Assembly (NCBI RefSeq): GCF_921293095.1
Contig: NC_060252.1
Location: forward strand, 74,482,866-74,546,865
Reading direction: 5' to 3'
Source of the DNA: Ischnura elegans
Taxonomy: Eukaryota > Arthropoda > Insecta > Odonata > Coenagrionidae
DNA length: 64,000 nucleotides
The stretch's first letter is position 1. Each line of letters opens with the position of its first letter. Below the pieces are notes generated by a model. The model saw only the letters and a program-made list of their open reading frames with translations. It did no database searches and had not been told where the DNA came from. Shown piece after piece: positions 777-28,890 of this stretch. Made by a program: the position numbers and the translations under genes.

Positions 777-904
777 GTTATTTTTGGCAACATGATACTG
801 GACCTAGGTGAGAGCAGATATGTCACCAAATTTGAAGATATTCGTCGTTTTCTCTATATTATTGATAAGATGAGCAAATGTAATGGAATTGAAACTGGTA
901 GGAG
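777..904 (+). CDS. Gene A exon (module part 2)
   Basis: The acceptor TTTTTATAG precedes GTT ATT TTT GGC AAC; the donor is AG|GTAAGA. It encodes a predicted mostly helical segment ending KCNGIETGRR, homologous to gene B exon 7. Confidence 0.8.
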
Positions 905-3900: not shown

Positions 3901-6403
3901 TCAAATATTTGGAAAATATAAATTCCTTCTGAGAACTTAATGAAATTTGGAAACTGAATAAATTCTAATACAATTTCTTTGCAGAATACAAATCTCTTAT
4001 TTTATCATTGGTGCTCTTTGATTCATTTGCGCAGATGGTGTGCTCACCCTCAGAAAAAATTATGTACGAAGAAACTATAGATATACAGTAAGTTCTTGAT
4101 TATACGAAGCAGGATATTACGAAATTTTTGATAATACATTGTGAAATTGTGGTCCCAGTTATAAGCATATGATAAATACATGGCACTATTCAATAATACA
4201 AAGTTTTGAAATGCGGAATGTTAAAAAAATTACAAGCATCAGGCTCAGTCCCCTGGGGCTAATGGAATTTGATCATATGAATGACGGCAAAAAATTTGTC
4301 AAAAAAACTAGTTATTCTGGGATAAGTAGCTAAAAAAATCAGCGCTTCAAAATGGTAAATGATAGTCTAACTTTGGAGGGACAGGGTTTGCCTTATAACT
4401 TACTGTGAGAATCGAGGGAAAGTAGGAGTTCACAATTCAAAGGAATATGTAGGGAGTCAATGGAAAATGAAACTGTGGGAACTTTCGGAACATGTGGCAA
4501 CGAGAATTCTTACGACGTTTTTGTTGAGCGAGGAATGGATCCTGCAGGAACCTTGGGCGTTGGACGGCGGGTCAATGAGACAGCGATTTCCGCACTCAAA
4601 ATTTTGCCTGGCACACTGCTGTTGTGCAGGTTCAACTCGCTGCTTCCTTGGGTCGCGTTCTCGTGCCTTTTCCTCTCTCGGCTCCTCACCGACGACGGAA
4701 TCCCTGCTGCGACTGCTTCGACCTCGACTCAGGTCGCTCTCTCCTTCTCAAAACCTTCACTTTCTTATCCTCAATCCTCTATCTATCCCTTTTCTATCCT
4801 CTGGAAAAGCCTTATATAGGTCGCCTTGCCTCCCATAATGCACTACACACACTGTCGTCTGCACTTTCGATACTCATATTTCTTTTTTTCAGTGGGTATT
4901 TCGAATGCAGACGACCAACATCACTGCACTGATTTTGCACTTCATAACACAAAACAAAAATAAACCCAGTGACTTTTAGGTGCAAAAAATAATGTACAAT
5001 TTTTGACAAAGATCAGAAAAAAAATAAACCCCTCTTGCCAAAATTGCGAACATCTCCCATGATCGGCTCTCAAGAGTACATATCAAAAATTAAAAAGACT
5101 GTGATGGCGTTGGACCATCACAATATATACTTACCTATATATAGAGTCACTGTGGTGATTATTTATGGTTCTTTATAGTGATAATAGAACTACATGTAGT
5201 CATTGAAATGTACACCAAGTTTACAAAATTGCATCCTCCCCTGAATAAACTTCTTCTTCAGCCCCTGCCAACTATCCCAAAGGCTAGATCCATAACTTGG
5301 AGCTTGCCCTCCCTTCTTAGAGGAGAACCCAACCAGGGGAGGTCGACTCTCTCCCTAAGTTGTATACACCATTGATCCAATCCCCATGAAAAAATCATTT
5401 GATTTAGCCGATTGCCAGTCAGGTATACTACCTGATACACCACCAAGTCATCTTCTTCTAAAGGAAATCACAGACTGGGTTTACTGAACAAGGTATCTCC
5501 CCTCAAGTCACAGGAGATGGAGCTCATGCTTACGAAGCCACTGTCGGAGAATAAACCACTCTTAGTCGCTATCCCGCGACAGACATTTTCTAGTGTACTG
5601 CATAGAACAAGTGACTTTGTATGCAGTCACGCACACAGGTACTCCCCCTAAGGTTTCCTTTCCTTGAGCTGTCATCATCATGTTCATAGTGCTCCAAGTG
5701 TCTCCATCTTCCAGTTTGTCTTCTAAACTTTCACCCTGTGCCTTTCCCTGTCTAGAGAGTTTGCGCCTGGCCCCAAAGAAAATTGTAGATCTCCACCAGA
5801 CTCTGTATGCAATGTATATATCCTGCCCTCACTGGAGTATTTGCATATACATATGAAGGCCATATTTTTCTTAAGTTGTAATCATTATTGGACAGCAGAG
5901 TATTTAATGTATTTTGAAGCCTCAATGCAAAAATTCCTTGGTCTTTTAAAATGAGCTCATCTCAAGATACCATTTTGTAGTTACTGTACATTAATTGTAT
6001 AAAACTATACATGGTACATATATGTATATTTTATATTCCCAGTGTTCTTTGTGAACAATTTGTATGTAATATTCATACATTTTGTACAATTTATTCATTA
6101 GTTTTACTAGAGATACATATATGTATGCCCTTCTAGTGACTATGAGATATTTTTATAGTGAAAATGATAAATTTTTATAGTGGTTGTATAAAATCCCACA
6201 TTGCTTCTATGTACATATTGTAAATATATACATATGTAGTTCTTTAGTTTTTTAGGGCAGATCATTGCATATAACTTTTTTTATTTATTGTAAATTAGCC
6301 ACAATGCTGGGAATTTGCACTGTTGAGACTTATGCTGCTTTTACTTACGTTTCTAGATCTCTACCCAGAAATGAAGAAGGGTGTGAAGACTCCTGCACCA
6401 TGA
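777..6403 (+). CDS. Gene A, 3' part: tandem paralogue of the THAP gene (last three coding exons)
   Basis: This is a partial gene whose 5' exons lie before the window. Coding exons are 777-904 (128 nt, phase 0 to 2), 3162-3349 (188 nt, phase 2 to 1) and 6357-6403 (ending in TGA), all with AG acceptors and GT donors. The exon sizes and phases equal those of the last three exons of gene B (128, 188, 47 nt). The first exon encodes a peptide with 27 of 43 residues identical to gene B, including FEDIRRFLYIIDKM and KCNG. The second carries SCPVYFIPG, a cysteine-rich RCPYCQGASEE stretch and a basic helix-like RIRRLKRGHE tail. The C terminus is DLYPEMKKGVKTPAP. The 3' UTR also resembles gene B's (both have a GTTGTGA..AATTGGT-type stretch), so the duplication reached past the stop. 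Whether it also has a THAP domain cannot be seen here. Function is unknown. Confidence 0.8.
1100..1800 (+). pseudogene. Probable LINE linker-region remnant with a tandem duplication
   Basis: Broken frames read like the segment between endonuclease and reverse transcriptase of RTE-like LINEs, e.g. EAAKEVIGRR followed by AVKN. Stops and frame changes are frequent. Positions 1439-1550 are repeated at 1551-1660 with about two mismatches. This is a weak assignment. Confidence 0.4.
1837..2110 (-). mobile_element. Penelope-like element 3' fragment
   Basis: The minus strand encodes REAIEISKEEKNNFNRDTG followed by SRTWQPVV, the typical C terminus of Penelope-like GIY-YIG endonuclease proteins. Downstream on that strand (1905-1840) lies a sequence with a GGAAACGTTGG core like the hammerhead-bearing ends of these elements. 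The 5' part is missing. Confidence 0.65.
2130..2390 (+). pseudogene. RTE-like LINE C-terminal remnant
   Basis: Reads SMILHGSEVWMMTVAQKSRL followed by degenerate EMW-region and WMDLVSNEEVLK-type sequence, as in the C-terminal part of RTE-like LINE polyproteins (compare 16261-16653 on the minus strand). Interrupted by stops. Confidence 0.55.
2397..2515 (-). mobile_element. tRNA-derived SINE fragment
   Basis: The minus strand at 2499-2428 is tRNA-like, with an A-box-like TAGCTTAACTGGCTA and a B-box-like GGTTTGAATCCCGG, followed by the shared body GGCGAATGATTTTTTTCTCTG. Related copies occur near 26829, 27002, 61735 and 61870. Confidence 0.75.
2829..3102. mobile_element. hAT-type MITE (CAGTGGC family)
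   Basis: Ends CAGTGGCACAACTATGG and its complement CCAAGTTATGCCACTG are inverted. The interior has C/G runs and no gene. The TSD is not clear. It lies in a gene A intron just before exon 3162. Confidence 0.55.
3162..3349 (+). CDS. Gene A exon (cysteine-rich part of module)
   Basis: The acceptor is CTCACACAG and the donor is TCAG|GTATCG. The frame starting at 3163 is open throughout, and its length (188 nt) is identical to gene B exon 8. It encodes SCPVYFIPG, then FCYIRCPYCQGASEE, then a lysine/arginine-rich helix-like tail. Confidence 0.8.
4086..4405. mobile_element. Pogo-like MITE
   Basis: Inverted CAGTAAGTT / AACTTACTG ends, with TA at the left and TG (a degraded TA) at the right. The interior has tigger-like sequence (TTCTTGATTATACGAAG). 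It lies in the last gene A intron. Confidence 0.45.
4406..6356. other. Gene A intron, GC-rich island with no supported gene
   Basis: Positions 4440-4930 are richer in G+C than their surroundings and open in all three + frames, but none of the translations looks like a known protein. A TATATAGG stretch occurs near 4814. An old LTR or promoter fragment is possible. 4980-6350 is ordinary AT-rich intron. Confidence 0.4.
6357..6403 (+). CDS. Gene A terminal exon
   Basis: The acceptor TTTCTAG is followed by the codons for DLYPEMKKGVKTPAP and a TGA stop. It is matched by gene B's last exon (DLYPTMKKGAKASAP). No clear AATAAA lies soon after the stop, so the polyadenylation site is unresolved. Confidence 0.75.
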
Positions 6404-10432: not shown

Positions 10433-10552
10433 ATGGCGTTTCACTATGCCAGATACTGTTTCGTACCTGGATGCAGGTCTGGCACTAGGTCCCTACGTAC
10501 ATACAACAGGAAAAATAAAATAAAGAATCCCTCGCTGTTTAGCGCTCCTAAG
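10433..10552 (+). CDS. Gene B exon 1: start and first half of THAP finger
   Basis: ATG at 10433 opens MAFHYARYCFVPGC, giving the first two zinc ligands (C9, C14) right after the start, as in other THAP proteins. An in-frame TAA lies upstream in the leader. The donor is AAG|GTAATA after SLFSAPK. Confidence 0.85.
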
Positions 10553-13500
10553 GTAATACATTTGTTTTTCTCTTAGGCATTTGATGAAATCACAACACAT
10601 TTGGTATTCGTCCATGAACCTGCTATTAAACGACCTCGAACGTTGAGATTTGTGGTGCAGACTTAACGAAGCTGTGTTATAATTTTTTAGGAGCGCGATT
10701 ACACTTTTCGCGCAGTGAGGTATTGAAAATGGGTTTTTCCTGCTGTGTTAAATGCAGAAGGTCCTCGAAAGGGTTTAACAAATTGTCATCTTAAAAGCTA
10801 CTACTAGGGGAAGGATTATACATAGTTAACGTCCTTGAAATGACTGTTTTGAAGCTTCCTTGTTGGTCTGTCGAAAATTTTTGTACCAAGGCTGTTTTCA
10901 AGCCCGCCTTCAAAATTATTTTCATATTGTAAAGAGATGTCAAGCTGAAAAATTACGGGTCATTCCATGTCAAAACGACACTTATTAGACTAATTTTAAA
11001 TCTCCATTTTATATTTTGATAAAATTTGGTATGCTAATAGTGAGTGCTGAGGCAGATAAATGCCTAATTTCAATTTTTTATCAAACTATTTAGGAAATAT
11101 AGCTAGAAGAGTAAAATTGTCAAAAACAGGTCAAATAAAGGTGAATAGAACTTTTTCAAATCGCTCTCAGAGCTGTTCTGTTTGAGCTAGAGAGCTGAAT
11201 AGAGGGTAACAGTGTACTTATCGAAATACCACGAGGATAATTGGCGTTTTGATGAAAGTATGTAGTGTCATCGAATAGGGTGCCTTTTTTGTGCTCTTTC
11301 CATTGATATATAACACCCCCTATGAAGGGGACAGCATAGATTTTAAATTGTTTTTGCAAAAAAAAAATTTTGAATATATATTTTTACAAAAATTATATAA
11401 TTTAAAATGTGAAAAATCCATAAATACTTAGTACTGTTGTAAATCACATGGAAAAACATAATTGTGGGATGAAGATGTTTTCATCGATAAAACAAAAAAA
11501 AATTTCTGCTGCATGTTTTTCACTTTTAACCTTGTTTTGACCACATCTATGTTTTCAAAATCGGAATCCGAATATTCTACCAGTTGGTTAAAAAATATAG
11601 GAATAAACAATAACTCATATTTTATTTCTTCTTAAAATTTCTATTTGCTTTCTTCCCTGCATTGTCTCTCATTCGTAATTTCCAAATTTCTCACTTTCTT
11701 TCCTATATCTCTCTTCCCCTACTGAATTGTTCCAGTCTTCTACGACTGCTGGGTTTTTCCTCGCAGGCATTTCTTTAACTGTTTCCTTGAGCTGTCCATA
11801 TGCCCTTTTTATTCCTCCATCTTGTGGTTGCTTGAGGGTACACCTGGGCCACCACCTGGTTGATGGTGTATGCCTCATTTTCAACCTCCAGAATCCTATC
11901 ACCTAACTGCTGTAGGTATTTCACTCTCTTATTCACCTTTTTGTTAAATACCAAGGCTACCCCCATTGGCTTTACTCCCCGCAACTTTAACTACCCTGTT
12001 ACTCATCACTCCAGTAGTCCCCACTATTCTTCCATGTAACTTCACTTAAGTAGGTCAAACATACCTTTTCTCCATTTCTATTTTCTATTTTACCTGCTCT
12101 CATCATTGTCATTACATTAATGTTCCTTCATTCATTACTGCCCTTGCGTTCTTCATCTTCTTGGTATTACCTTTATTTTTTTGTGTGAAGTGGCACAGAG
12201 TATGGTTTTCATGTGATAATGACCTGAAGGATCAAGCTGCTCTGAACCACACTTACCCTTAAGAGCCATGTCACCTTTTTCTGAAAATTGATTAAAGCAT
12301 ATATAAGAGCGTTAAAAAGATTAAATATTGAGTATGTACCCTAGTATGAAATTAACTTAAGGAGATTCACGATTTTATATTTCATCAACTCAACATTGGC
12401 ACTACGTCATTATTGACTGTACACAGCTACACTACAGACTAGCAGCATACCTAAAGTGATCTTATGAGGAATGAGGTTGCAAATTTCATCTTTCTCTATC
12501 CTATATCTCATTCTTTTTTGCCAATTGGGTAGTCTCCTTCATCAAAGAAAAGGAAAGGTATTGATTGCGATACGTTACCCACCATTATTATATTCATGAT
12601 ATACAAATTATTTGGTTTTAAAGTTTCCAGTTTAGACGAGTGTTAATGGTCAATTTTAGCCTCATTTGAAAAAGGCCAGATTGGCGGCCATGCGATGCCA
12701 CCCCATTTGACGTCACAGGGACCTAGATGCTAAAAGAGTAGTCAGGAGTTTTACATCATCTGAGATTATAAATGCATGCATGAGGCACAGAGGTCAGGGA
12801 AACATCTCTTAATAATCACTTATCAAAATTCCCTATGGCCAGAAAGTTTTCTTTGTTTGATAGGGTAATAATAATCCCTATTTAAGCCAAGCGCAACCTG
12901 CTAGCAGTCTGAATTGTAGCGGAGCTCACAGCCTTGCACCAAGGTGGCCTCACATGGTGGCAGCCAGAACCAAAATGGCGTCACACGGGCCTTTCCCAGC
13001 ATTCATTCTTAGCTGTTGCGTTTTCGCACGCTTGAAATTTTTCACTTTTCATTTAATCGCAAAGATAGATATCGTCATTTAAAAATCTAAAAGTACTCCA
13101 GGAGTAATAATCTTTTGATTCAGGAAATAAAAAAAATAGGAAACCACCCTATTATGGTTAACTTGAAAAAATATTTTCCTAGTCATGACAGCATTTCCCC
13201 ACAGTCACAGTTGAAAAAAAATAATGGAAATCCCTCTGAAAATTTGCCTTGACATAAATTCAAGTGAGAATCCCAAGAATGGACACCAAATATTTATTGG
13301 TTTATATGAAGTGAGTGACCTCTATGGCCTCAAGGTCAACTGGTAAGAGACAACAACAAGGAGTTTTTCCCATGGAGTAAGTGTTGGTTGTGTGTGTGAA
13401 TACTCAATGGAAGCAGTCTTAGCTAGGCCCCTTACAATCTTTGCTAAGGTTCCTTCAGAGTTGAGTGAGCGATTGACTAGGGTTTCTGGTTGAGAGGTAG

Positions 13501-16500
13501 GGGTTGGTCACTGCTGAGAATCTTCCTGTTCCAGCATACCAACACAGCTGTGTTGGTACCTGCGACGTGGTTCCTACATAACTACCATTGGAGTTGTTCT
13601 CTCTTACGAGTATTTATCGGTTGTTCTAACGTTTACCTCAAATTTGAAAATCTTCATTGATCTCTCTTGGTTCCAGATTGAGGCCAATAATTTTAATGCA
13701 CATTTTGGTGACTCAAACTTCTTCCAATGATAGCAACTACATTGCTGTAGAGGAAGAGTTCTCTGGTTTCCAGCCGGGTCTAAGGGTTTTTCAGCACCAA
13801 CGTTTTGAAGGCTAAGTCTGCCATCATCTTCGATCTGGAAACCCGAGAACTCTTCCTCCAGTCTGTTCGCCGGAAAACCTTAGATCCTTCATTACATTAC
13901 TGTATATTATTTACCCTTTATATTATAATGTCGTCTTTCATTTTTAGGACCCCAAACTTAAGCAGTTGTGGGACCTTGCCATTTGTAGAAAAGACCGTAC
14001 TTTAAGCAGGAAAGATGTTGTGTGTGAAATACATTTTAAAGAGGATGAAATACAGAGGTATTATGAGACTTTACTTGCTAATGGTGAGATTCACAGGCTT
14101 GAAAGGACTCACCCTACATTGAAGAAGAATGCAATTCCATCAATTTTTCCATCACTAGAAAATCAGAGTGACAAGAGAAAGAGGGGTTGTCCTGTTGAAA
14201 GACTATCAGTTGTACTTGGCACCCAGGATTGTGATGTTGGTGTTATGGAGCCAAGACCTGAAAGTGAGGTGAAGACTGAGCTCTTTGACTTTCAAGTGCT
14301 CAAGGAAGAAGCCCCTAATATTGTACTCCCATCAGACATGTGGACTGTTGGTGTTCTGAAAGGGAATCAAGTGATATTTGCCAGTTGGAGTGAAGGTGAA
14401 ACTTTTGAAGCGAGAAAAAGGGTTTTGGTCAATGCAGAATTACAAGTCAAGGTCAGTTATGGGTAAATTAACTGTATTTTCAGTGTCATTACCCAATTAC
14501 AGTTTTTCTGATCAGTATTTGATGAAATGAATGTAGGAATTAATGGGATACTTTTGGTGCTAGATATTTTTTGGAAACGTTAATGCAGCACTGGACAACA
14601 TGAAGGAAGTCCACAGCCTTGCAGAAGTGTCTGCATTTTTGATTGTGATTGACCAGTTAAAAATCTGTTCGAATAAGAGGTGGGTCTTGATCTCTCTTAA
14701 TTTGCTTGTATGTTGTAAATATGAGTTATGTACTTACAACCATAATTTCTTTTTAGAACTTCAAATTGTTTGGGATACGCTATTCCAAGTGATGTGACTG
14801 AAGAAGAAACAGCTGCTGCCTTTTGTCGCTATTGCCAAAAAGCAGAGGTATATTCATTCGGTCTGAATAATGGTAACGAAGATTTTGACCCAGATGAAGT
14901 GCAGAACAAGGTACAGTGCAACCTCGATATAACGACACCCCACGGTGCTCCAATAAACACTCGTTATATCGAATTGTCGCTTTACCGGAGGTGGAGCAAA
15001 TAATAGCCAATATGTATACCTGTTGCGAACACTTATACAGGAACAGGAGTGGTGCGGCGAGAGATTAATTTCTATCCGATAAACGTAAGCATAAATCCAG
15101 ACAAAAGGCGATGTTTTTTTGAATCACTTAATTTCCTTACTCAAACTACGACTAACTATTCAAACAATTTATAAGCGCTACACTGAATAAAAATCATGCA
15201 AAGCATTGTTTTGTCAATCATTATGCCAATGCACAACCGAAGAAGCCATTTTTCTATGCACTTAATTAGCGCATTTATGTAATCATTCTAAAATTTTGGT
15301 ATTTTCCATTGAAAATTCAAAAATTAACTGATAAAACTGTATCGCGGTTATTTAATGCCTCAAATGTTTCCATTGGTGTATGTTTATTGTTCCTGTCGGT
15401 TAAGCGACAATGGGTGAAATAACGTATCGCATTTGTTTCTGCAGTTTACCACATGAATATGAGCACTCCATTAACTTCATTTCTAACAGATCGCTAGCAA
15501 TACAGAGATTAAGAAATCTTGGTTTAAGTTTTTTCCGGCGGTGAAACCCTCGCTATGGCGAGAGCCAACACCAAAAGGGCCTCGTTAAAACGAATTTTTT
15601 AACATGCTCATTATAGGATCGATTGACGGTGCATCGGCTATCTCTCGTAATAGCGGGGGTCTCGCTATAGCCCGTACTCGCTTTAACGAGGTTCCACTGT
15701 ATTAAAAAAACTCCTAATTCCATTTAACTCTGTAATCATTTAACCAAGAAGGTACATTAGAAAATCTAGTAGTTGCATGTATTTAATTATTTGAGTTGTG
15801 ATAATGTCAGGTGAACTATAATCTTAGTTATGGCTTCAGAAAAATTACTGCCGAGATATATTGTTTTTAAGAGAGATTACATTTATAGTTATATTCAACT
15901 TAACCCATTTACTGCCAGCCAATTTTGGGTGGTGCGTGCGAAGACTGCCAAGGCTTTTTTCTGGGATTTGCAAGATTTTAGATCTTAAATTATTTCAGCT
16001 ACTAAATTTTATTATTTACCGTGAAACCATCTTTGTAAGCAGCAGAGATAAAGCAAACGTGTATAATTGAGACGGCAGCTGTTGAAAAGGCCACAATCAC
16101 GAAATTAAATAAATCAAATAAGTTGGGCTGATAAATTGGCCTGACTTTGTAAGTGGCAGTTACTTTTACTTTAAACAGTAACATTTACTTTAAATAAGTG
16201 GCAGTTTTCACACAACAAGCGAGGGCCGATATATTGGCCCGATGGCAGTAAAAAGGTTAATCAAGAGTCATCAATCCTAACAATGGTTTCACACACCTCT
16301 ACACTCAGGTCTCCCATCAGCCTGTCAACACCTACATAATTTTTCTGCTTAACAACATTCACGGCCTGCTCCATGAATTTTTTTCCTAGTCCACCTCTGT
16401 CATTCTTCTCACCCACCAATCCTTCAGTATTAATTTTCATTAGACCCTCAGGATGTGGTTGATTAAATCTTTCCATCTTCTTCCCAAGGTTTTCAAAAGA

Positions 16501-19500
16501 CTTTTTTCTTACTTTTCTTAGAAATTCCGTATTACTCACATAATTTATCCATTCGACCTTCAGCGTTCTTCTGTGAAACCACATTTCGAAAGCATCCAAC
16601 CTAGATTTATCTGATGCTGCCATCGTCCATGCCTCAGTACAATAAAGAAGCATGCTCCAAATGTAAGTCCCAATAAATTGCCTCCTGACTTTTCAGCTGT
16701 AACTAGACCCTCTTTTTGAGGAATGCCCTCTTGGGTTGTGCTACTTTAAGTATAGTACTATTAGTAGTACTAGTACTATTTCCTTCTTGCTTTATCTGTC
16801 GCTGATTCCTCATCTACCCAAGTGGCAGAACTCCTTTGTCTCCTCAAGTTTAATGTTTCCTAGTTTCAGGTTGGCCTTCACCTCTACTTATACTTTTGTT
16901 TTCTTGGCATTGATTTTCAGATTAAATATTTATATCATTCAATAAGTACATTTCCTTAAATGAATCCTGGTGTTGTGCATTTACTTTTTGGTGTCCCATT
17001 TACTTTCAAGTTAACTAGCCTACTGAAAAAAAAACACCTCGTTAAATCAAGCGTAGACCATTCACAGAGATCTCTTGGCCTTACTATATCCATATTTTTT
17101 TACATGCAAATCATGGTACATTGCTAGGTACTTCTTCCAATGTGATTTTCATCATATATCATTCTCACAATAATCAGCTTGTACATGAGATATTAAGTGA
17201 ACTTCTAAAATGTTACTGTTTGGTTTCTATCTCATTTTGAGAAGAAGAGTATGGTGTTGGCGGATAAAGGAGTCTCTCCTGAAGGGAAGCCTCCTCCCAA
17301 GAGAGGAGTCAAGAAGAGGCTATGCGGGGAGACACATGCTGTGGACAGTTGTGAGATGGTTTTGGGGGAGGAGGAAGGCATGATGGAAGAGTTGTCTCCA
17401 CCTCCGAAGATGTATTCCCTGACTTTGCCACTGCACCTCCTCAGTCACCCACCCGTGGACTTCATCAGGTGTGAATGCATCATTGGTTGGTACTCATACA
17501 AGCATCGACTCTTGGGCAAAATTTTCACTTCTGCACATCGATTTCAGGAGTTGAATCGGACAATGGTTGTGTAAAACTCCAGCTGGTTTTTTTTTCGTAA
17601 CTCAGAAGTGCATTTTCAATGGTGGGTTACTTGTATAAATCCTCCCTTGTAGCAACTTCTTCATATCCCTAGTACGTTTGTCCCTTCCCTCAATGGCAAT
17701 CTGTTTATAGGAAACATGACCTCTCATTGTTGGTGGCAAACAATGAGACAAGAGGTATCTGCAAGCAAGGTTAGAATTTTTAACCAATTGGCTTGTTCAC
17801 CAATTTAATTTTTCTGAAAGTTGTAATAGATATTGAAAAATGAATAGTCCATTATTTTCCAGTTTTTCGATCCATTGCTTACTTCCCAAGCTATTTTCAA
17901 CAAACAAATTTCTGGTATACCCTTTTGCGGATAAGTTAATGACATCATGTCTTACAGATCACTGCTTCAGGGCTACTTCTCCACAATGTAATAATAATAA
18001 TAATAATTTATTCTCCGCAGACCATACAAATGTAGGTATCAGATTCGTCAGTATCACAGTATACATGGGTCATAAAGAAAATGATTCAATTTAACATTGT
18101 TTGTGATCATCACTAAAGAATTCATTTACAGTATAATAACATTTCATTATCAGATACTCTTTTAAGAGTTTTTTAAATACTTTTGTCGATTTTGTACACT
18201 TCACACTGTCAGGTAGTAAGTTATAGATTTTAGTACCCATAATCATTGGATTATTTGAAGATATCTTCTTTTTGTGAAAAGTTACATGAATATTGTATGC
18301 ATTTCTTGTGCCATAGGGGTGAATTTCTTCATTAATATTAAATTTATGAATATTTTCTTTCACCAAAATTGCTACACAATATATATTCATAGATGCAATA
18401 GTTAAAAGTCTTAGTTCTCTCATTAGTGGTTTACATGAAGTCCTTTGTGAAACACCCATTATACATCTAATAACTTTTTTTTTAACTAAAAAAATTTTTG
18501 GAGTAGGCTAGAGGAGGACCCCTATGGACTATTCCATAAGAAGCTGTAGTGTAAAAATTTGAGAAATAAACAGTTTTCAAAACATCTTGAGATACAGTGT
18601 TATAAAGAAACCTAATTTGATAGAGAACAGAATTTAGAGTAGAGCACAACTCTGAAACATGTATTCTCCAGCTTCCATTATTTTGCACATACAAGCCTAG
18701 AAATTTCACTTCCCTGGCAAGTGAGATAATGTTATCTTTAAGAGTTAATTCTGGCATATTATTTATACCAATATGGTTGATCAGCAGAACTTGTGTTTTA
18801 CTGGCATTAAGTTTTAGTTTATTGTTTTGACACCATTTGCAAATCCTCTCTAGCAGCTGCTGAGTCTCTTTAAATAGCCCCTCAATAGATTTACCAGCGA
18901 CTACAAAGCTATGTAGTGTCATCTGCAAATATGTAACACTGTTTTCACATTACATGAATTTGTTATTTTGGGCAAATCATTTACATAGAGTAAGAAGAGG
19001 ATGGGCCCTAAAATAGATCCCTGAGGAACGCCTGCAATAATTTCATAAGGATCAGACAAGCATTTCCCAGTTTTTGTAGTTATTTCAACTTTTTGTACTC
19101 TATCAGACAAGTATGAGGATATGATGTAGTGGGCTTTGAGTGGTTCATTCTTGTTTACATCCTTGTGAGTGAAACCTCACATCAGTGATAAATTCTCTCG
19201 GAATGAATAAATTAATCAGAAATCTCATGATGTCACTGATTCATGAATATTCAAGGGCAACTTTTGAGTTTTTTTATTTTAAATTTGCGAGCTAGTGTCT
19301 GAATGGAGAAAATAGTTTTTCTGTGGTAACCTATCTTTCCCTTCCGTCTGCGGAATTCTTTTGATGCATTGTGATTTCGGATCTTAATGAATGATCACTT
19401 TACAGTGTGAGGTTTACTGTTTTTCCATTGATTCAAGTGTAATGGTGGAGTAGAAATTGTGATCACTGACATTCTTCGTTCATGTTTCTTTCGCTTTCTT

Positions 19501-22500
19501 CACTTTTCAGCTTATTTTGCTCTTTAACCTTCTGTAATGAAGTTGGCTGTCATCATTTTTCCCAGTTTTATGTCTGTATCTCTTTTCATATCAATAATCG
19601 ATGCCTTCTCTGCATAAGCGCTCAACATTCACCCACCTAATCAAATCCACTCCTCTAGGAGCCCACAATACAAATGCGCTCATAAATGCTCACTTCCAAT
19701 TCTACAAGCTTCGTAGGTGAGTATTTGTGCTTCGGCTATAGGGTAGTTTCCTTCATCAAAGAAAACGAAAGGCATTGATTGCGATTCATTACCCACCATT
19801 AGTGTATTCATAATATACAAATTATTTCGTTTTAGAAATACCGGTTTAGACGAATGGCAATGGTCCATTTTTATCCTCATTTGAAAAGGGCCAGATTGGC
19901 GCCCATGCGATGCCACTCCACGTGACGTCACAGGGACCTAGTTTCTATAGGAGAAGATAGGAGTTATACATTGTCAGAGGTTACCAATGCATGCATGAGG
20001 CGCAGAGCTTAGGAAATCATGTCTCAATAATCACTTATTAAAACTGGCTAAGGTCGGAAAGTTTTCTTCGTTTGATAAGGTATTAATAATCCTTATCTAA
20101 GCCAAGCGCTACCAGCCAGCAGGGTACTCAGCTACCCGCTAGCAGCCTGCATCGTATCAGCGCTAAGCCTCGTCTCAAGATCACCTCACAGGGCGGCAGC
20201 GGGAATCAGAAATACGTCGTACGGAGAGATTTCCCGGCATTCATACTTACGCGTCGCGTTTTCGTGCGCTTGAAAATGTTCACTTTTCATTTAATCGCGA
20301 AAAATAGATATCGTCATTTAAAAATCTAAAAGCATGAAATACGTACTCCAGGAGTAATAATCTTCCGATATAGGCAATAAAAAATAATAGGAAACCACCC
20401 AATTGCCAGCTGAGCATATGCATATTGTTGGGCTCCTTGAAGAACGGATTTAATATTGTGTCTGATTGTTGAGCACTTGTGCAGTGGAGGTATCGTAGTG
20501 TCTAAATGTTCCATCTCAATCCATTTCCTCTTCCTGTAGTCCATTTATAATATTTTGCCTGTTCTCTTCCACTGATGTCTTCGTTGCATCATCTCATATT
20601 TAGTTCTCCGCTGGTTCTTGATATGTCAATTGATGATGGGTCTCTTTGTTGCTTTCTTTAGATTTTAAAATTTTAGGTGGCATTTCATTTTCACTCAATT
20701 TTAGCTTTTGTCTCAGGGTAGCTTTTGCAGTCTTTTATTTGGTTTCTGAAATTTGATTTACTGGAATGGAGTGAATTTGCTAATACAGCGATGTGAGGGG
20801 CAAGGGGAAATCACCAAATTAATAACACAAGGGTCGCAGCTACTTCACTCTTCTTCAGATGCCATCACTTTTAGACGTCAAAGTAGTGCTATTTTGAGCA
20901 ATCAACTTGCTACATGGTGGTTCATTTTGAAAACAAAATCCGTGAACTAAGTACAAATGACAAACAAGTCTTTCAGTAATTGGCTATTTTATAGGAAATA
21001 ATGATTTGATTCATGGCTCAACAAATAGCTTAAAACTTTAGCTAAAAATGCACTTAGAAGACCCTTAAGTGCTAAAACAGTCAGGGTTTACCAAATAAAA
21101 ATTGTGTGAAGTTTTGCAATCTTTAGATGCTCTAGTATAAACCATATTTGAGTGTATGGAATGAAATTTGAATGCTAAACTTTTCATTCCTCCTCCTGAC
21201 GGCATTCCCTTTCGGAGAAATGAAGAATTCGAAGTTCATTCCATGCTGCAGCACTCCCGGAAATTGTTTATACTAGTGCAAAAATTGTGTGGAATTCACA
21301 AAATGTAATCCACTTATTTATGGCTAAAATTAAGGTTCTTCATGATTAGCTCTTCAGTAGTTAGTTAGCATTGTTGAAGATACATGAATTAATTGTTGAT
21401 GGAATGACTCTTAAGTGGCTGTGTTTCAATATTGGGGCTTTTTTTCTACCGGCCTAGTTCTACTCCATCTGAGGAAAATGAAGGATCGGAGGATACTGCC
21501 TTACCATTGAATATTAAGGAGCTGTTGAACGTTGCACATCATATCCCAATGCCAAGTGATGCGTGGACACGGGGTGTTGTGAAGGGCAAGCGATTAATAT
21601 TTGCCAGCTGGAAAGAAGGAAAAGTGATGGAGGCTGAGAAAAGAGTGGTTGTGGATGAGGACATGAGTGTCAAGGTGGGTATATCCCTAAATGGTTTGTT
21701 TTTTATTAATTTGTTCTGGCATTTGTTGTGTATATTCATCATTAGTGAAATGAAAGCTTATTATGAATCGTGGAATTTTTATTGCTATCCTTAATTCATT
21801 ACTTTCAAGGAATTCTTGATGAAATTGCAGATGTACATAAGTTTGAGCAGATCAGGGTAGATCTATGTATGCATTAAAAACTTTTCTAAATGAAAGGGAT
21901 TTGTTCTGAAAAACTGATTCAAAATGAGGCCCAAATAATTTTAGACCTATAGGTGGAGGTCAGTGAAAGTGGTTTTATTTTTTGCTAAAATTCATTTTAA
22001 AACCATGTGATTTTGGTTTTATAGAAAATCTTGGCGGTGTTATTACAATGCTACAATTTTCACACGTTTATAGGCGTTTTATAATTTTATGGTACACCTT
22101 TCATGAATACTTATACTTTTAATAATCATTTTACATAACATTTAACACAATTTCGATTGTACAACATTTATGATAAAACTAAATGAAAGAATTGTTTCAA
22201 CTTATAGTGGTTCAAGTATGTAGTCTTGGTGAATATAAACGGCAAATTCCCACTACCTCATATGTGTATACTTCAAGAGCCATTCCATAATTTTTGGATT
22301 GTCAAGTTTCTCTACACTAAATAAAGCCTTTGAAAATGCTTCTGTAGTAGCAACAACAAGCTCCTCTTTTGCTTTCTTTGACTGAGTGACTGTTTGTTCA
22401 AATGATAACTGTCGTTTTGCAGGTCCCCTTTCTTTCACACATTTATGTGTATCGCTACTGATGTGCTTTAACAAAGTGTCACATCTTTCGAATTAAAATC

Positions 22501-25500
22501 TTTTATCGCAAACTTTGCACAGTAATACTCTGTATTTCACATAAAATCCTTCTCTGCTGAATTCTCTTGCCCTGGTGTGAACAGTATCACTAGCTTTTGG
22601 CATTTTTAAATTCCTATCCTTCGTTTTATATTTAAAGCTGGAACTATGGTAAAAAACAGTCCAACTGCAAAACACAACCTATCACGATTTTCAAACTTAG
22701 TGCTGGGTAGCTACGGTATAACCATAGTACTGTAAAACTTACAAATTGGACGAAATGTTTCATGTCGTGGGTTCCCTTTCGATACCCCTCACCCAGGTGT
22801 TGAGGGATGGTAGGACAGCAGCTAGGTACAACAAAATTGCTTAGTTTTGATTGCAGCTGTTGCCAATCGGTCAGGAAAGGCAGTGAAAGAAGCACACATA
22901 ACAAAACATAATCGGGTTCATAGAAACTTGAATAATTATTTCCCATTTATTGATCCTGAAACATCTAGAATGAGACACTTTCTCACCTGAAGAATTAGAT
23001 TTGGCCAATGTCGAAATGATTTTTTTTTGCATTTAGCTCGGTGGTGAGCCGAATATCCGATGATCCGTCCCCTGATAAGGAGAACCCCCTCTCCTCCTAT
23101 CCTTTCTGTTCCTTCCTTCCATAATATCTAATCCTCATTTTAAATATTTCAGGATTGATACTTGGGAATTGAAGAGAGAGGCTGTGATACATTTAACGGC
23201 AAATTCTGACGGAGAAATCACTAGAATGGGCGATATTACGCGGATGCGTTATGTGTGAGACTAAAGGAGCCAATTGACCTTGGAATCGTAATGAGATAGA
23301 GCAAATGAACGTTGGCAGTGTTAAACATTGAAGGCTTGGGCTTTAATAGATTATGACTCATTAGATGTGATTTTTTTGCTAATCCATCTAAAATCGCAAA
23401 AAACGTGAAATTTCGTTTTTATTTACCGATTTCGCGATATTTTGTGTTATTTCATGATGTTGTGTCTTGCGAAATGCACGGACCTCTACCTATAGGTCAG
23501 CTTCAGACTCTCAAGTGTGACATTTTATCATAAGGAGGATGAAATCACAAAAATGCATTGGCTTTAGAGTCTTTCTTATTAGATTTAGCCAAGTTGTAAT
23601 CTATTTGGATAAAATTTTTGTTCACATTGTATCTGAGTTTATTAAGCCACAATTTCACTTTTTTGTGCGGCTCTATGGAACATGTGGGCATAGAATGGTG
23701 GAGGGGACTGACAAAATTCATACTGCACAAATCTTTCATTGAAGACTGTAATAATGGATGATAAGTAAACAGGAATGATAGATACGGAGGATTTACTTGA
23801 ATTCAAAGGTATATGGGGTAAATTGTAGGAAGCAGAGTAAAAATATGTGATTAAGTAGGGTTACCATATTTTTGTTAATTCTCTCGCCACAATGGAAAAC
23901 AATCTGGGAATATTTACTATAGCTCATTGCATGGTAGTGTACAAGCCAGATTACTTCCCTGGTACCCTCCTACTCTTTATTTAAATTGAGAATCATGTAA
24001 GAATGTGCGAATGGAAGGGCATACATGAAGCTAATGTGTTACTGGAACAAAGTGTTGGAGTAGGCTCTCATCAATACGAACAACATTATGTATTTCGAAT
24101 TTCTTGTTTTTATCAAGTAAATCATTGGTCCTGATGAGAAGGCTAGTCCAATCCATTGTACATACAAGAAAAGTTAACACGAAATTACGAATGTTAGTCC
24201 CTGTCCTGGCAGTTATAAAATGAACTTTATTGCGAAGTTCCACAGGTTAGCAATGGCGTTTAGGTGGATATACACAACGGTATGTCATAATCATTGTGCT
24301 ACGTTTAAGTTCTCCTCGTGCACTGTGTGCAAGAATGTCAATTATGGTTCTGTCTTCAGTAGAAGATACTGAAGTAAAATATACTCTAGTAACCACACAG
24401 CAGTACATAATAACTTTCATTCCTGCGGAATCATGGTGACCCACTCATTACTGACCGTAAACGTGTGATAAGTCCTCTTCTGATGAACATCTATTACTAT
24501 TTCTTTTTTGGAAAAGAAAGGTTCACCTATTATTGTGTAATTGATGTTTAGTCACTTATATGAAATAAATGTTAGGATTCTTCCATTTGAAGTAAAATGT
24601 TATACTTTGAGTAAATAATTTATGTATTATTCTTATGTTTTTTTTACTTCATCCTGTAGTAATACATTGAATTTTATTTTCTAGGTTGTAATTGGCAACA
24701 TAACTTTAGCCCTAAATGAAATCAGAAATGTAAAGAAATTTGAAGATGTTGGTCGTTATCTGTATATTGTTGATAAAATGGCCAAATGTAATGGTGTTGG
24801 AACTGGAAGGAGGTAAGATTCAAATAGATATACATATTAAATGAATTTATGTGCCTGGTGTGATGTCTGACCTTAGAAGACTTAAATTGCATATTTGTTC
24901 AATTTTGCCAATCATATGCTTTCTTGCTGAAAAGAATTTGTGGGACACTCCAATGCCTCTCCCCCTGCTGGAAGTACATTTATTTCATTTGAAAATTTTC
25001 AGTTGGTTAGTACATAATGTTTTTGGTTGTTGACATAGTGATATTTGTTGGAGATTGGATATCAAATGGCGAAGAAGTGGATGCGTGAAGTATGGAATAG
25101 CGATACGAGCATTTTCTTATCACTCAAGTGAGAGTTGAAGGGAAATGAGTCATCATGAGAATAGAAAAATGTAACTAATGTTGTATTTCTTTATTATCAA
25201 GCACTACTATAGCCTTTGTTTTGCTCTTAGATGCATCATATCTCTTTATGAACAAATTATTGATGAACATGAAAATCGGATGCCTCTGTTTCAGCAGAGT
25301 TCTACAATTCCAACCACTTTCCTCGTAACACCTGCTTTGATCCCATTTTATCTCGCTCAATAAATTAGGTATCGATTATAATTAAGCATAGGAATTGCAA
25401 CATGCTTAATAAATTTGTGGGATAAAATTTTAATTTTGCTTTTCAATGGAAAAAGGTTGAGGTAATTGTGATCAAACATTAAAAATAAATGATAAGTCAG

Positions 25501-28500
25501 GTAGAACTGGTTGGAAAAGCATTCTATCATGAAAGAGAATTTTTAAGAGAGATAGGACTTTGAGGGAGTGGTAGATGATGACATAATGTTATGCGAATGT
25601 GTAAGTGATTATTTGGATTGCATAGAAATTGGGTGAAAATCGTTTTTAAATTTAAAATGCACATTTAGTGGAAGGTTAGTGCTTAGTAACAGGTACTCCC
25701 TGACTTACAACTGTCTATATGGAGTTAGTACCAAAATTATTTTTAAAAACAAGGTTTGAAAAATCCCCCAAATTTCTTCTTGAAAATTCCATGAGAATTG
25801 CACATGTTTTGTGGCAATGTATTTCTATCAGGACGTTATTCTCAATTTTTATTCATACCTTTACACCTCTTAAAGGATCTTGCCAAAAAAGCATGTGAAA
25901 TTCACAGAGCAAATTCACATCAATCAATCAACCTGTGGATTGGCTCTTTTGAAATGGTATCATGTTCTTCTTTCCTTTGCAGAGCTGCATCATGTCCTGG
26001 CTATTTCATACCTGGTCAAGTATGTGTGATGGGTTTTTGCCTCTCGCGGTGTGCCTTTTGCCAAGGGGCATCCGAAGAATTGATGAGGATCCGGCGAATG
26101 AAGCGAGGGCATGAACAGGTGCGGGCTGAAGTCCAAGAGAAAGCATGGAAGAACCTCAAGAAGCTATCTGGTATGTTGTCATTGTACTTCTCATTTTGGT
26201 GTAAGACTTTTGAAATTATCAGTGTGTTGCATGAAACACCAAGTGCACATCCTTTTCCGGGAAAAAATCAATATCTAACATTCAAACTAATTCTAGATGA
26301 CTGCTTTGAGATCAGTGGGCTCATATACTGTATTTATGTCGCTTTTACTGACATTTCCCCTCTTTTGCTGGTGGCTTCTTCAGGGTTCACTGTTAAAAGA
26401 AGTTTATTTGTAATCCATGGTCCACAAAAGCTTCAATCGGTTTCCAATAAAAAAAAATAATGGGAATAGAGTTTGGAAAATAAATAGACTTCTCCATTTT
26501 TTTTCTGTTGCATAATTCTAGAATTGATTGCAATTATTAATCAACAGCTATAACCATTTTGCCCGTAAGTTAACGAAGTTACCAACTCTTGCAAAGCAGG
26601 TTACCATTTCTCAGCCATTCCTCATCCTTGTGCATTGGCTTCTTGTGGTTTGTTGTTTACACTCTTGAGAGTGATTTCATCCTTCAGTCAGCATTTTTCT
26701 CTGAACAAGTTAATGAGACAAAACTCTATAAAGATGTATTTAAGTATACCAGGACTAGCCACCGTGATAACTTTACGGGAGTCACCCGCAATGCACAAAT
26801 TGTGTGAAAAATCCACAGAGAAAAAATCATTCGCCTTGACTGGGATTCGAACCCGGATCCCTCGATTTCCGGCTGAGTGCTTTAGCCAGTTAAGCTACCA
26901 AGGCGTCATTCTTCCCTGTGGAAATTTGTTGACTATACCGGACATGGAGTCCATACCACCATGTCCGGTATAGTCAACAAATTTCCACAGGGAAGAATGA
27001 CGCCTCGGTAGCTTAACTGGCTAAAGCACTCGGCCGGAAATCGAGGGATCCGGGTTCGAATTCCGGTCAAGGCGAATGATTTTTTTCTCTGTGGATTTTT
27101 TGCCCAATCTATAAAGATGTCACCAAATCACAAAAGGTGAGTGGCAACTGCCATCCACTTTGTTGTTTTGGTATTTGGGGAGAATGGCAGAATTTTTTTG
27201 TAACTAGTTTTTACCTTCCATCCTCTGAATTCTTTTGTTGAATTGCAATTTGAGGTGTTATTGAACAAGACCATAGTCACTTGTGCAACTGGTTTGCAGC
27301 TTTGGCTGCAAACAACTTTCCCTCCATGCAATAAGCCTTAAACCAAAAAATGGTGGGAATTTTATATTACCAATATCTTCATTATCCAGAGTATTCACTT
27401 GGTCCTTCTCTTGTGTACAGGCAGTCCCTGACTTTTGCACACAATGTGTTCCTGAAAACGTGTATGAAATTCGAATGTACAAATGTCGAACCATTGAGTT
27501 CCATACTAATTAGGGGTTATGTACCGCAAGAGTGAAATACACATACACACTAACACCGTATTTTTTGCTCAGATTTTATTTATATTAGCTAATGTTTAAT
27601 AATAGGTTAATAAAATTCCTCAATTATATAATGTCTTTCGAAAATATGCGGGAAATGTAAATAAAAGTTAAAAAAAAACAAGAATTCCGTTGTGGGTTCC
27701 CAGTGAAACTTTCTCTCGATGTTTAAGTGGACATTCCACTTAAAATGTCAATTATAAATAAAAAGACATATCAAGAAGTATAACAAAATGCAATTGCTGA
27801 ATCCTCACTCTTGATACCTTTAAATTTATATACCAAAATTCCTCGGCGGGTGACATCTCGTCACAGCGTATTTCGGGACAGAAACTAAAAGACTAAAGAC
27901 ATACAGAATTTGGATGTTATTTCTCACAATATCGTTGCTTAAGGTGTAAATCTCAGTCATGAATTAAACAGCACTCAAACGGAAAAAACACTATTAGGAA
28001 GAAGCACTTTTATTTATTAATTTTATTGAAAGCTGTGTGATGGCGTTTAGTCAACTTTTTTGAAAAATTTCTCTAATGAAGGCTGCCTTACAGCTTTTTT
28101 CTTCTCTCGACAAAAGAGCCTGTAGTAATCAGTGTCTTTCTCAAAAAAATCACCTTGATTAAAGTCAACGCTACCCTTGATCATATACGCTCATATTATC
28201 CGCATTTAATGCCATATGAAAAAGTTGAGTGTTAGGATGCGCAGTAAACATTGCGGGAATTTCAAAATTTTACAGATAGATGTTCAAAAGCACAAAAGGC
28301 ATAAGGACTTTCACCCAAATTTTGTTAGGACTACTATTGCAAAGCATGGACCAATGTCCATGGGGTTAAATATTTACAGTCATTTACCCCTGGACCTCAA
28401 AATTAAGATAGGTACCGAAGTATTTAGGAAAAAGGCGTTGAACTTTTTCCTCTCCAAAATGTTTTACTCTTTAAAAGAATTCTTTGATTCAAATTTTTTA

Positions 28501-28890
28501 AAGGAGTGGAATGAGTGATTAATTTTAGTTATATATACCATTTTTTAAGAATGTATTTTATATTATCTTGTACATGCACTTTGTGTAATTCATTGACGTG
28601 CTTTATATTGATGCACAATGCTGTTATCAATCTCTGGGCAAATAAATACTATTATTATTATTAAATTTAGTGTACGAAATTCGAGTAAAATGTGTCAGTT
28701 ATGAACGTACAAAAGTATGAATTGTACTAAAGTCTAGGACCGCCTGTATAATGCCCCACAGTCTACTTAAAAATGGGACAATTTTGTTGTTATGTGACTT
28801 GACATGACTCGATTAAATTGGATACATTATGATTTCTCCACAGATCTCTATCCAACAATGAAGAAGGGGGCAAAAGCCTCTGCTCCATAA
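10433..28890 (+). CDS. Gene B: THAP-domain protein with a duplicated uncharacterised module
   Basis: Nine exons join to 567 codons including the stop (566 aa): 10433-10552, 13948-14451, 14564-14679, 14757-14910, 17242-17468, 21458-21674, 24685-24812, 25983-26170, 28844-28890. All phases agree. Residues 1-107 form a THAP zinc finger: C9-x4-C14-x51-C66-x2-H69, Trp48, an FSAPKDP turn and the AIPSIF (AVPTIF-type) box at 102-107. THAP domains bind DNA through this C2CH zinc site, so a nuclear DNA-binding role is expected. Two related modules follow (about 167-272 and 405-515), each with PSDxWTxGVxKG, IFASWxEG, a GNxxxAL helix region, then C-x7/11-C-x-GYxIP and C-x2-C-Q. No DDE/RNase H transposase domain follows the THAP domain, so it is not an intact P-type transposase. 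Exon 5 is the least certain because it has no homologue here. Regulation cannot be read from the sequence. Confidence 0.85.
11650..12165 (-). pseudogene. RTE-like LINE endonuclease remnant
   Basis: The minus strand reads TMMRAGKIENRNGEKVCLTY, then SDEVTG, then PMGVALVFNKKVNKRVKYLQ, LGDRILEVE and ETVKEMP. These are the blocks of the EEP-type endonuclease at the start of RTE-like LINE proteins. Several frameshifts break it. It lies in gene B intron 1. Confidence 0.65.
12527..13150. mobile_element. Interspersed repeat with short inverted ends, copy 1
   Basis: Shares most of its length with 19741-20400 in the same orientation. Ends GGGTAGTCTCC and GGAAACCACCC are inverted. Contains TGACGTCA at 12708-12715. 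No reading frame. Gene B intron 1. Confidence 0.65.
13745..13895 (-). mobile_element. Penelope-type terminal sequence
   Basis: Shares GAGTTCTC-GGTTTCCAGCCGGGT, TTTTTCAGCACC and the AGTCTGCCATC block with the palindrome at 63330-63590. On the minus strand it reads GATGATGGC...GCC...AAAACGTTGG, a hammerhead-like arrangement. It ends about 50 bp before gene B exon 2. Confidence 0.55.
13948..14451 (+). CDS. Gene B exon 2: rest of THAP finger, linker, start of module 1
   Basis: The acceptor TTTTTAG precedes DPKLKQLWDLAICR. The exon carries C66 and H69 (VVCEIHF), the AIPSIF box, an acidic linker with a KRKRG basic patch, and then LPSDMWTVGVLKG and IFASWSEGETFEARKRV. The donor is AAG|GTCAGT, phase 0. 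Confidence 0.85.
14564..14679 (+). CDS. Gene B exon 3: module 1 middle
   Basis: A small exon of 116 nt, phase 0 to 2, found by homology to the 128-nt exons. It encodes IFFGNVNAALDNMKEVHSLA and ends in ICSNKR. Its presence is required to reconcile the phase of exon 2 (0) with exon 4 (2). The donor is AG|GTGGGT. Confidence 0.75.
14757..14910 (+). CDS. Gene B exon 4: module 1 cysteine part
   Basis: The acceptor TTTTTTAG precedes TSNCLGYAIPSDV, then AAAFCRYCQKAEV and an acidic tail ending DPDEVQNK. The donor AAG|GTACAG runs straight into the end of a pogo-like transposon that starts at 14914. Confidence 0.75.
14914..15699. mobile_element. Pogo/Tigger-like element abutting gene B exon 4
   Basis: Inverted ends CAGTGCAACCTCG(ATATAACG) and CGAGGTTCCACTG are flanked by TA on both sides (14912-14913 and 15700-15701). 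No intact transposase. The left TA is part of the exon 4 splice donor GTA. Confidence 0.8.
15904..16256. mobile_element. piggyBac-type MITE with TTAA sites
   Basis: TTAA at 15900-15903 and 16257-16260 flank inverted ends CCCATTTACTGCC and GGCAGTAAAAAGG. 353 bp, non-coding. Gene B intron 4. Confidence 0.75.
16261..16653 (-). pseudogene. RTE-like LINE C-terminal fragment
   Basis: 130 open codons read LLYCTEAWTMAASDKSRLDA, FEMWFHRRTLKVEWI, then NTEFLRKV, the usual C-terminal block after the reverse transcriptase of RTE-like LINEs. The 5' part is missing, so it cannot be active. Confidence 0.75.
17242..17468 (+). CDS. Gene B exon 5: linker between modules
   Basis: A 227-nt exon, phase 0 to 2, with acceptor CTCATTTTGAG and donor ATCAG|GTGTGA. 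It encodes a basic, proline-rich start (SPEGKPPPKRGVKKR), an acidic patch and SPPPKMYSLTLPLHL. It has no homologue elsewhere in the window; it is accepted because its phases fit exons 4 and 6 exactly. An acceptor three bases later is equally possible. Confidence 0.55.
17990..19135 (-). pseudogene. CR1/Jockey-like LINE, 5'-truncated and frameshifted
   Basis: The minus strand reads [20 protein letters not shown], then LLERICKWCQNNKLKLNASK and VKFLGLYVQN, then a C-terminal MGTKIYNLLPDSVK block. Frame changes at about 18920 and 18480 break it, and the YADD region is lost in one of these. The element ends at 17990 with an (AAT)n tail. Gene B intron 5. Confidence 0.75.
19136..19420. repeat. Old interspersed repeat, partial copy
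   Basis: Contains GTAACCTATCTTTCC.TTCC and the following ATTCTTTTGATGCATTGTG, matching sequence near 27195-27270 and 59720-59790. No ends visible. Confidence 0.4.
19741..20400. mobile_element. Interspersed repeat with short inverted ends, copy 2
   Basis: Similar to 12527-13150 along its whole length, with the TGACGTCA octamer at 19923-19930 conserved. Ends GGGTAGTTTCC and GGAAACCACCC. Gene B intron 5. Confidence 0.65.
20401..21457. other. Gene B intron 5, remainder
   Basis: AT-rich sequence; I see no gene, structured repeat or transposon end here. Confidence 0.5.
21458..21674 (+). CDS. Gene B exon 6: start of module 2
   Basis: The acceptor CGGCCTAG and donor AAG|GTGGGT flank 217 nt, phase 2 to 0. 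It encodes an acidic start, then MPSDAWTRGVVKGKRLIF and ASWKEGKVMEAEKRVVV, clearly homologous to the end of exon 2. Confidence 0.8.
22253..22603 (-). pseudogene. CGGBP1/hAT-like zinc-finger pseudogene
   Basis: From ATG at 22603 the minus strand reads MPKASDTVHTRAREF, then VLLCKVCDKRF, an in-frame TAA, FERCDTLLKHISSDTHK, a basic stretch, and FSVEKLDNPKIMEWLLKY. A C-x2-C...H-x5-H finger followed by the 'leucine-glutamate-lysine..NP' helix is the layout of CGGBP1-like proteins, which derive from hAT transposases. The single stop (22493-22495) and a loss of frame after about 22253 argue against function. Confidence 0.55.
22604..24684. other. Gene B intron 6, unassigned
   Basis: Two minus-strand frames (24031-24243 and 24247-24444) could be pieces of one decayed transposon protein, but I do not recognise them. 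The rest is AT-rich with no gene. Confidence 0.4.
24685..24812 (+). CDS. Gene B exon 7: module 2 middle
   Basis: 128 nt, phase 0 to 2, acceptor TTTTCTAG, donor AG|GTAAGA. It encodes VVIGNITLALNEIRNVKKF, a predicted helical stretch, and KCNGVGTGRR. It matches gene A exon 777-904 and, more distantly, exon 3. Confidence 0.85.
25983..26170 (+). CDS. Gene B exon 8: module 2 cysteine part and basic tail
   Basis: 188 nt, phase 2 to 1, acceptor CTTTGCAG, donor TCTG|GTATGT. It encodes SCPGYFIPGQVC, FCLSRCAFCQGASEE and the basic, probably coiled or helical RIRRMKRGHEQVRAE segment. The longer open frame around it (25798-26460) is only intron read-through. Confidence 0.85.
26540..27300. repeat. Old interspersed repeat split by the SINE dimer
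   Basis: Two halves (to 26737, and from 27108) match 59514-59790 when joined, e.g. GTTGTTTACACTCTTGAG and the later GTAAC..CTTCC block. It is the host sequence into which the 26738-27107 element inserted. Confidence 0.6.
26738..27107. mobile_element. Head-to-head SINE dimer (large hairpin) with 13-bp target duplication
   Basis: The 13-mer TCTATAAAGATGT flanks it at 26725-26737 and 27108-27120. The left half carries a tRNA-like unit on the minus strand (26904-26833) and the right half one on the plus strand (27002-27073). The arms are reverse complements from the shared body (AAATCCACAGAGAAAAAA) through the tRNA part to the centre near 26945-26962. The 13-bp duplication points to LINE-type target-primed insertion. 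Gene B intron 8. Confidence 0.8.
27418..28746. mobile_element. Pogo/Tigger-like element with a LINE nested in it
   Basis: Inverted ends CAGGCAGTCCCTGACTTTTG and ...AGTCTAGGACCGCCTG are flanked by TA (27416-27417, 28747-28748). Both ends carry a GTACGAAATTCGA-type subterminal sequence. Contains the LINE fragment at about 28180-28668. No transposase frame survives. Confidence 0.75.
28180..28668 (+). pseudogene. CR1/Jockey-like LINE C-terminal fragment
   Basis: 100 codons end in NFVRTTIAKHGPMSMGLNIY, SHLPLDLK and a FFLSKMFYSLKEFFDS tail, followed by a short 3' UTR and ATTATTATTATTAA. It resembles the C termini at 17990-18459 and 43998-44216 on the minus strand. Confidence 0.7.
28844..28890 (+). 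CDS. Gene B terminal exon
   Basis: The acceptor TCTCCACAG precedes the codons for DLYPTMKKGAKASAP and a TAA stop at 28888-28890. It is homologous to the gene A terminal exon. Confidence 0.8.

Follow-up and report, generated by a model that had tools for sequence, protein, structure and literature searches.

The 64,000-nucleotide stretch of DNA analyzed here (hereinafter, the window) comes from chromosome 7 of the damselfly Ischnura elegans (positions 74,482,866-74,546,865) and contains a predicted gene of nine exons, gene B (window 10433-28890, plus strand). The predicted product consists of 565 aa; the reading frame includes no internal stop codons, all 8 introns are bounded by GT-AG, and the intron phases are, in order, 0, 0, 2, 0, 2, 0, 2, and 1. 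Exon 1 (10433..10552, +) carries the start codon and the first half of a THAP finger, with its C-x4-C, and has homologous counterparts both in paralogues and in the transposase-linked loci described below. Exon 2 (13948..14451, +) encodes the second half of the finger, with C-x2-H and AIPSIF, a box similar to AVPTIF, followed by a linker and the first third of a module that we denote module 1. The THAP finger is complete, as the initial annotation of this DNA maintained: residues 9-107 match the Pfam THAP domain (PF05485) with E 4.4e-13.

The rest of module 1 is encoded in exon 3 (14564..14679, +), which covers its middle with the GNxxxAL block and the first cysteine, and exon 4 (14757..14910, +), which includes the second cysteine and C-x2-C-Q and ends in a tail. 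Exon 5 (17245..17468, +) encodes a linker that is conserved in all five paralogues, the only genes in this comparison. Module 2 is split in the same manner among exon 6 (21458..21674, +; first third), exon 7 (24685..24812, +; middle, with the first cysteine), and exon 8 (25983..26170, +; the second cysteine, C-x2-C-Q, and a basic tail). The last codons and the stop come from exon 9 (28844..28890, +), which has a counterpart in each of the five paralogues. The two modules, of approximately 120 aa each (about residues 159-277 and 396-518), share 39% identity over 119 columns, and their alignment scores 246, whereas 2000 shuffled alignments averaged 27 and never exceeded 57. The annotated motifs of this repeat are right, and so are the annotated splice phases: the inner introns of both copies are in phase 0, then 2, in gene B and throughout the paralogues.

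Several other features were detected in the window. Intron 8 of gene B contains an inverted pair of tRNA-Ser-like sequences with the anticodon GGA (26831-26905 on the minus strand and 27001-27075 on the plus strand), which are probably SINEs. A LINE-like reverse-transcriptase ORF is located downstream of the gene (31314-32399, minus strand; RVT_1, E 6.8e-20), and another one, with a match below the cut-off (RVT_1, E 1e-4), lies within intron 5 (18482-18949, minus strand). The ORF at 38648-39022 (plus strand) has a below-cut-off match to MR_MLE_N (E 7e-4) and is, we presume, perhaps an exon of an enolase-superfamily (ENOSF1-like) gene.

Gene B belongs to a family of five genes on chromosome 7, with A, Z, and Y located upstream in tandem; F lies on the opposite strand at a distance of about 29 Mb. 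Gene A, which figured in the initial annotation, proved to be a genuine paralogue: homology to gene B identifies its exons 7 (777..904, +; middle of module 2), 8 (3162..3349, +; end of module 2), and 9 (6357..6403, +) inside the window, the first six exons being upstream of it. All five genes show the same order, namely, the THAP half, module 1, the exon 5 linker, module 2, and the short last exon, with no internal stops, identical intron phases, and GT-AG at every splice site read. This recurrent layout is the strongest available indication that the nine exons of gene B form a single gene. Exon 1 was read in B, A, and Z, where the full set of THAP ligands is present; for Y, there is a candidate about 19 kb upstream, and a search for exon 1 of F found none; in Y and F, only the exon 2 half of the ligands is seen.

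Genome searches at E up to 10 returned 22 matches to module 2 and 21 to module 1, all from five places on chromosome 7 except for one (E 1.9, contig C11); these searches missed the diverged single modules described below and hence show confinement of close copies only. When the ten modules are placed in a tree, a single branch with support of 100/100 separates modules 1 from modules 2, which implies that the doubling preceded the multiplication of the genes. Omega values are between 0.37 and 0.53 in all ten gene pairs, with the highest upper bound at 0.77 (500 codon bootstraps, exon 1 excluded). An intact frame under purifying selection, a mark of domestication, is thus present in all five genes. 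In each of the ten pairs, dN is greater in the exon 2 THAP half and the linker than in either module. Omega is moderate, and the faster evolution of the THAP half is compatible with changing targets and with relaxed constraint as well.

Each of the ten modules of the family contains the four cysteines reported for gene B, with the spacing C-x7-C-x18-C-x2-C in module 1 and C-x11-C-x18-C-x2-C in module 2 of all five genes. The cysteines are among the 21 columns that are invariant across the ten modules. They are also retained in two of the three complete modules from transposons (see below), those of loci L076 and L078, with the spacing C-x12-C-x19/20-C-x2-C; the L075 module lacks the third cysteine, and its relative L074 retains the last three. 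Because the cysteines are conserved through transposon and host copies alike, the four in each module likely form a metal site. The cysteine-containing part yields weak, below-cut-off matches to zinc fingers (zf-C17orf113, E 0.075; DUF4379, E 0.077, on L074).

Like the initial annotation, which could name no family for the module, we found none in Pfam: searches with module pieces, both halves, and alignments of ten and eleven members recovered only THAP above the cut-off. The best match for the module, DUF3587 (E 0.014; 15.3 bits against a cut-off of 25), was judged to be due to chance. Searches of the PDB by sequence and with two profiles yielded nothing relevant to the module; the CD4 matches (E from 0.0031) map to residues 31-128, that is, the THAP part, and were also considered fortuitous. 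Scanning viral contigs with the module alignment produced 85 stretches that fit a pattern, none of which was confirmed, and the module was not found in loci L001-L008 in a first pass. Comparison with intronless THAP transposases (nine rows) gave E 0.18 in hhalign, E 0.013 with a probability of 3.4% for an enriched profile, and E 0.086 at best in hmmsearch, at the position expected after the THAP domain. This is a weak hint that the module might belong to a wider P-type domain. In the intronless transposases L005, L041, and L042, located on other contigs, the stretch that follows THAP looks vaguely similar (W...VxF...LxVKV). None of the papers in the collection searched mentions both 'Ischnura elegans' and 'THAP', and among the papers listed in further searches, judging by titles and the beginnings of abstracts, none describes this family.

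Relatives of the family outside the array were identified through the THAP exon. With the paralogue Y exon as the query, 133 matches at E up to 0.01 were obtained, the five family genes first, followed by THAP exons scattered across many contigs; among those from outside the family, the top 23 are 49-62% identical to the query. Five of these loci, L073-L076 and L078, were examined closely. L075, L076, and L078 encode one complete module split by introns in phase 0, then 2. In L074, only the first and last parts of the module are present, without exon 3, and in L073, the first two parts are found in a frame that differs from that of its THAP domain, the second part being matched at E 0.04 only. 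Some of these relatives, namely, L073, L074, and L075, are decayed. The examined stretches of L073-L076 yielded no further module, the L076 stretch ending inside the last module exon. When spliced, the single modules of L076, L075, and L078 scored 55.4, 38.5, and 46.1 bits, respectively, against a profile of the ten array modules; for L075 and L076, the best score among 2000 shuffled sequences was 7.8 bits. Alignment of the array modules with the transposon modules by hhalign gave a probability of 97.5% and E 6e-12. Another THAP-module locus of the L076 type, gene D, lies on chromosome 7 just before paralogue F (about 103213000-103215800, minus strand); RNase H was not matched within 20 kb of it. 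Gene D was considered as a single-module host gene and rejected: it resembles the L076 type, and its first module exon appears, by eye, to be frame-broken.

Downstream of the module, L074 contains ORFs that match the Pfam domain TNP-like_RNaseH_N (PF21787; E 2.9e-11), and the RNaseH_C part scores 19.8 bits, below the cut-off of 24. The RNase H exon of L074 has 60 matches in the genome at E up to 0.001; two P-type RNase H matches on chromosome 7, at 75309012 (minus strand) and 75364682 (plus strand), lie some 0.8 Mb away from the genes in tandem. We traced the linkage of these exons to the 30 best THAP matches outside the family (to E 3.8e-5, with 98 weaker ones left out). At 23 of the 30, including all five closely examined loci, a P-type RNase H exon lies downstream on the same strand, at a distance of 1.3-13.7 kb; at the other seven, no RNase H match was detected within 20 kb. 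None of the five array genes is followed by such an exon. A BLAST search with the downstream parts of L074 and two other THAP transposases found no match in the array (134,865 bases) or the far locus (36,000 bases) at E 0.1, with a sensitivity limited to the extent that the homologous exon 4 of the L074 module was missed in the array, so the genome-wide search with the RNase H exon is the stronger evidence that the catalytic core is absent. Thus, the RNase H core that marks a transposase of the P superfamily is present at L074 and was not detected in the array genes, which, judging by sequence, are derivatives and not transposases.

Because the single-module THAP loci lie near P-type RNase H exons, the module is taken to be the region between the THAP domain and the catalytic core in a lineage of P-like transposases, and the single-module relatives are presumably mobile. 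The module is accordingly no orphan and is not restricted to the gene B protein: elsewhere in the genome, it occurs in single copies at THAP loci that have a P-type RNase H exon nearby. Homology to transposase-linked genes and common intron phases are further marks of domestication that the array genes display, and the reading that suits the five genes best is that they are domesticated derivatives devoid of catalysis, in which the module has been doubled. Under this interpretation, the N-terminal part of the transposase, that is, the THAP finger and the following module with its putative four-cysteine metal site at the end, would have been kept, and the dimerization/HTH/RNase H part lost; doubling of the module would have come first, and multiplication of the family, largely as tandem copies, afterward. 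Taken as a whole, the reading of these genes as products of a P-superfamily-type THAP transposase that lost its catalytic part, doubled its module, and became a non-catalytic DNA-binding regulator seems probable to us.

The route by which the module was doubled is a separate matter. The doubling itself is borne out and is common to the five genes; the argument from equal phases to exon-block duplication, however, is weakened because phases 0 and 2 already exist in the single-module loci and so probably go back to the transposase gene, such that fusion with a neighbor would leave the same pattern. Such a fusion, in which module 2 (exons 5-9) derives from a neighboring copy devoid of its THAP exon and was spliced onto a gene consisting of THAP and module 1, is a distinct if minor possibility. 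Profile fit and charge suggest that module 2 resembles the transposon single module more closely than module 1 does: module 2 scores 46.0 and 29.8 bits on the L076 and L075 modules, compared to 32.2 and 21.5 bits for module 1, and its tail after C-x2-C carries a charge of +3 to +5, with +14 in L078 and +13 in L074, as opposed to -4 to +3 in module 1. The tandem arrangement of four of the five genes also agrees with a fusion. However, no THAP remnant was found before exon 6. Furthermore, when the three transposon modules are added to the tree, they are separated from the ten array modules with support of 100/99, albeit on long branches and with only three transposon modules, a result that lends no support to two independent captures; in this unrooted tree, modules 2 group together with support of 97/100, but modules 1 fall on one side of a branch in only 46% of the bootstraps.

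That same unrooted tree is compatible with the opposite direction of transfer, in which P-like transposons captured a THAP-module gene from the host, and the title of a paper by Quesneville et al. 2005 reportedly speaks of recurrent recruitment of THAP. We regard this scenario as improbable, given that the RNase H-linked THAP relatives are scattered over many contigs, whereas the two-module form was recovered solely from chromosome 7, in searches that, admittedly, also missed the single-module loci. Two separate neighboring genes, one made up of exons 1-4 (THAP and module 1) and the other of exons 5-9 (module 2), are even less probable: although 6.5 kb separate exon 4 from exon 6, the pair recurs in the same order and on the same strand in all five paralogues, the phases fit (0 into exon 5 and 2 into exon 6), and exons 5 and 9 are conserved. 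Finally, functionless, decaying transposon relics, as could be imagined from the transposon origin and the repeats in the introns, are hardly to be reconciled with five open frames, GT-AG at all the splice sites read, and omega values that stay below 1 in every one of the ten pairs.

For the domesticated derivatives that we favor, a mechanism can be proposed. The THAP finger would select the DNA site; each module would fold around one metal ion and make contacts with protein (or DNA), as in the transposase; and with two modules, the protein would gain an additional contact surface. Repression would be the most likely function, directed either at related P-like elements, through occupation of their ends, or at host promoters. 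By analogy with P-element proteins, the products are likely to be DNA-bound repressors or regulators. A regulatory role in the host is a serious candidate, with prospects not far below even, and repression of P-like elements is rated only slightly lower. A more ambitious proposal, which we consider rather unlikely, is that the four-cysteine domain, new to description, is typical of the whole P-type transposase lineage, and the host has made a multi-copy family of repressors in which the doubled module enables one protein to bind or bridge a pair of partners, be they transposon ends or transposase subunits, while fast-evolving THAP fingers track the changing elements. The apparent ancestor of the module can still be found in this genome next to transposase exons, and therein lies the interest of this family: the domestication seems to be traceable step by step, from the loss of the catalytic half through the doubling of one module to the multiplication of the genes. 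Attention is also drawn to a segment of a P-type transposase lineage, located after THAP and before the catalytic part, that no Pfam model covers.

Among the known systems, the family shares the N-terminal THAP domain with transposases of the P superfamily (THAP9/TNP-type), and in the damselfly relatives, the module is followed by an RNase H core (PF21787). The Drosophila P transposase consists of THAP, a leucine zipper, HTH, RNase H with a GTP-binding insert, and CTD, and the available parts of the review on this enzyme name no such module (PMC7776569). The array genes differ from the P-superfamily transposases in having no catalytic part. In animal THAP transcription factors, THAP can be accompanied by a coiled coil and an HBM motif; the array genes share with these proteins the complete C2CH THAP finger recognized by Pfam and differ in that the C-terminal part is the doubled module. 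Domesticated P neogenes, which occur in tandem in the Drosophila obscura group, and the truncated P-element repressors (the 66-kDa protein and KP) resemble the array genes in being THAP-bearing, catalysis-free products of a P-type transposase. The available parts of PMC9659126 contain no treatment of P neogenes. Truncated P-element proteins bind P DNA and repress transposition, according to the accessible text of the review (PMC7776569), and are the nearest worked-out precedent for the array genes, which differ from these repressors and neogenes in coming from another transposase lineage, in the additional four-cysteine module and its doubling, and in their nine exons.
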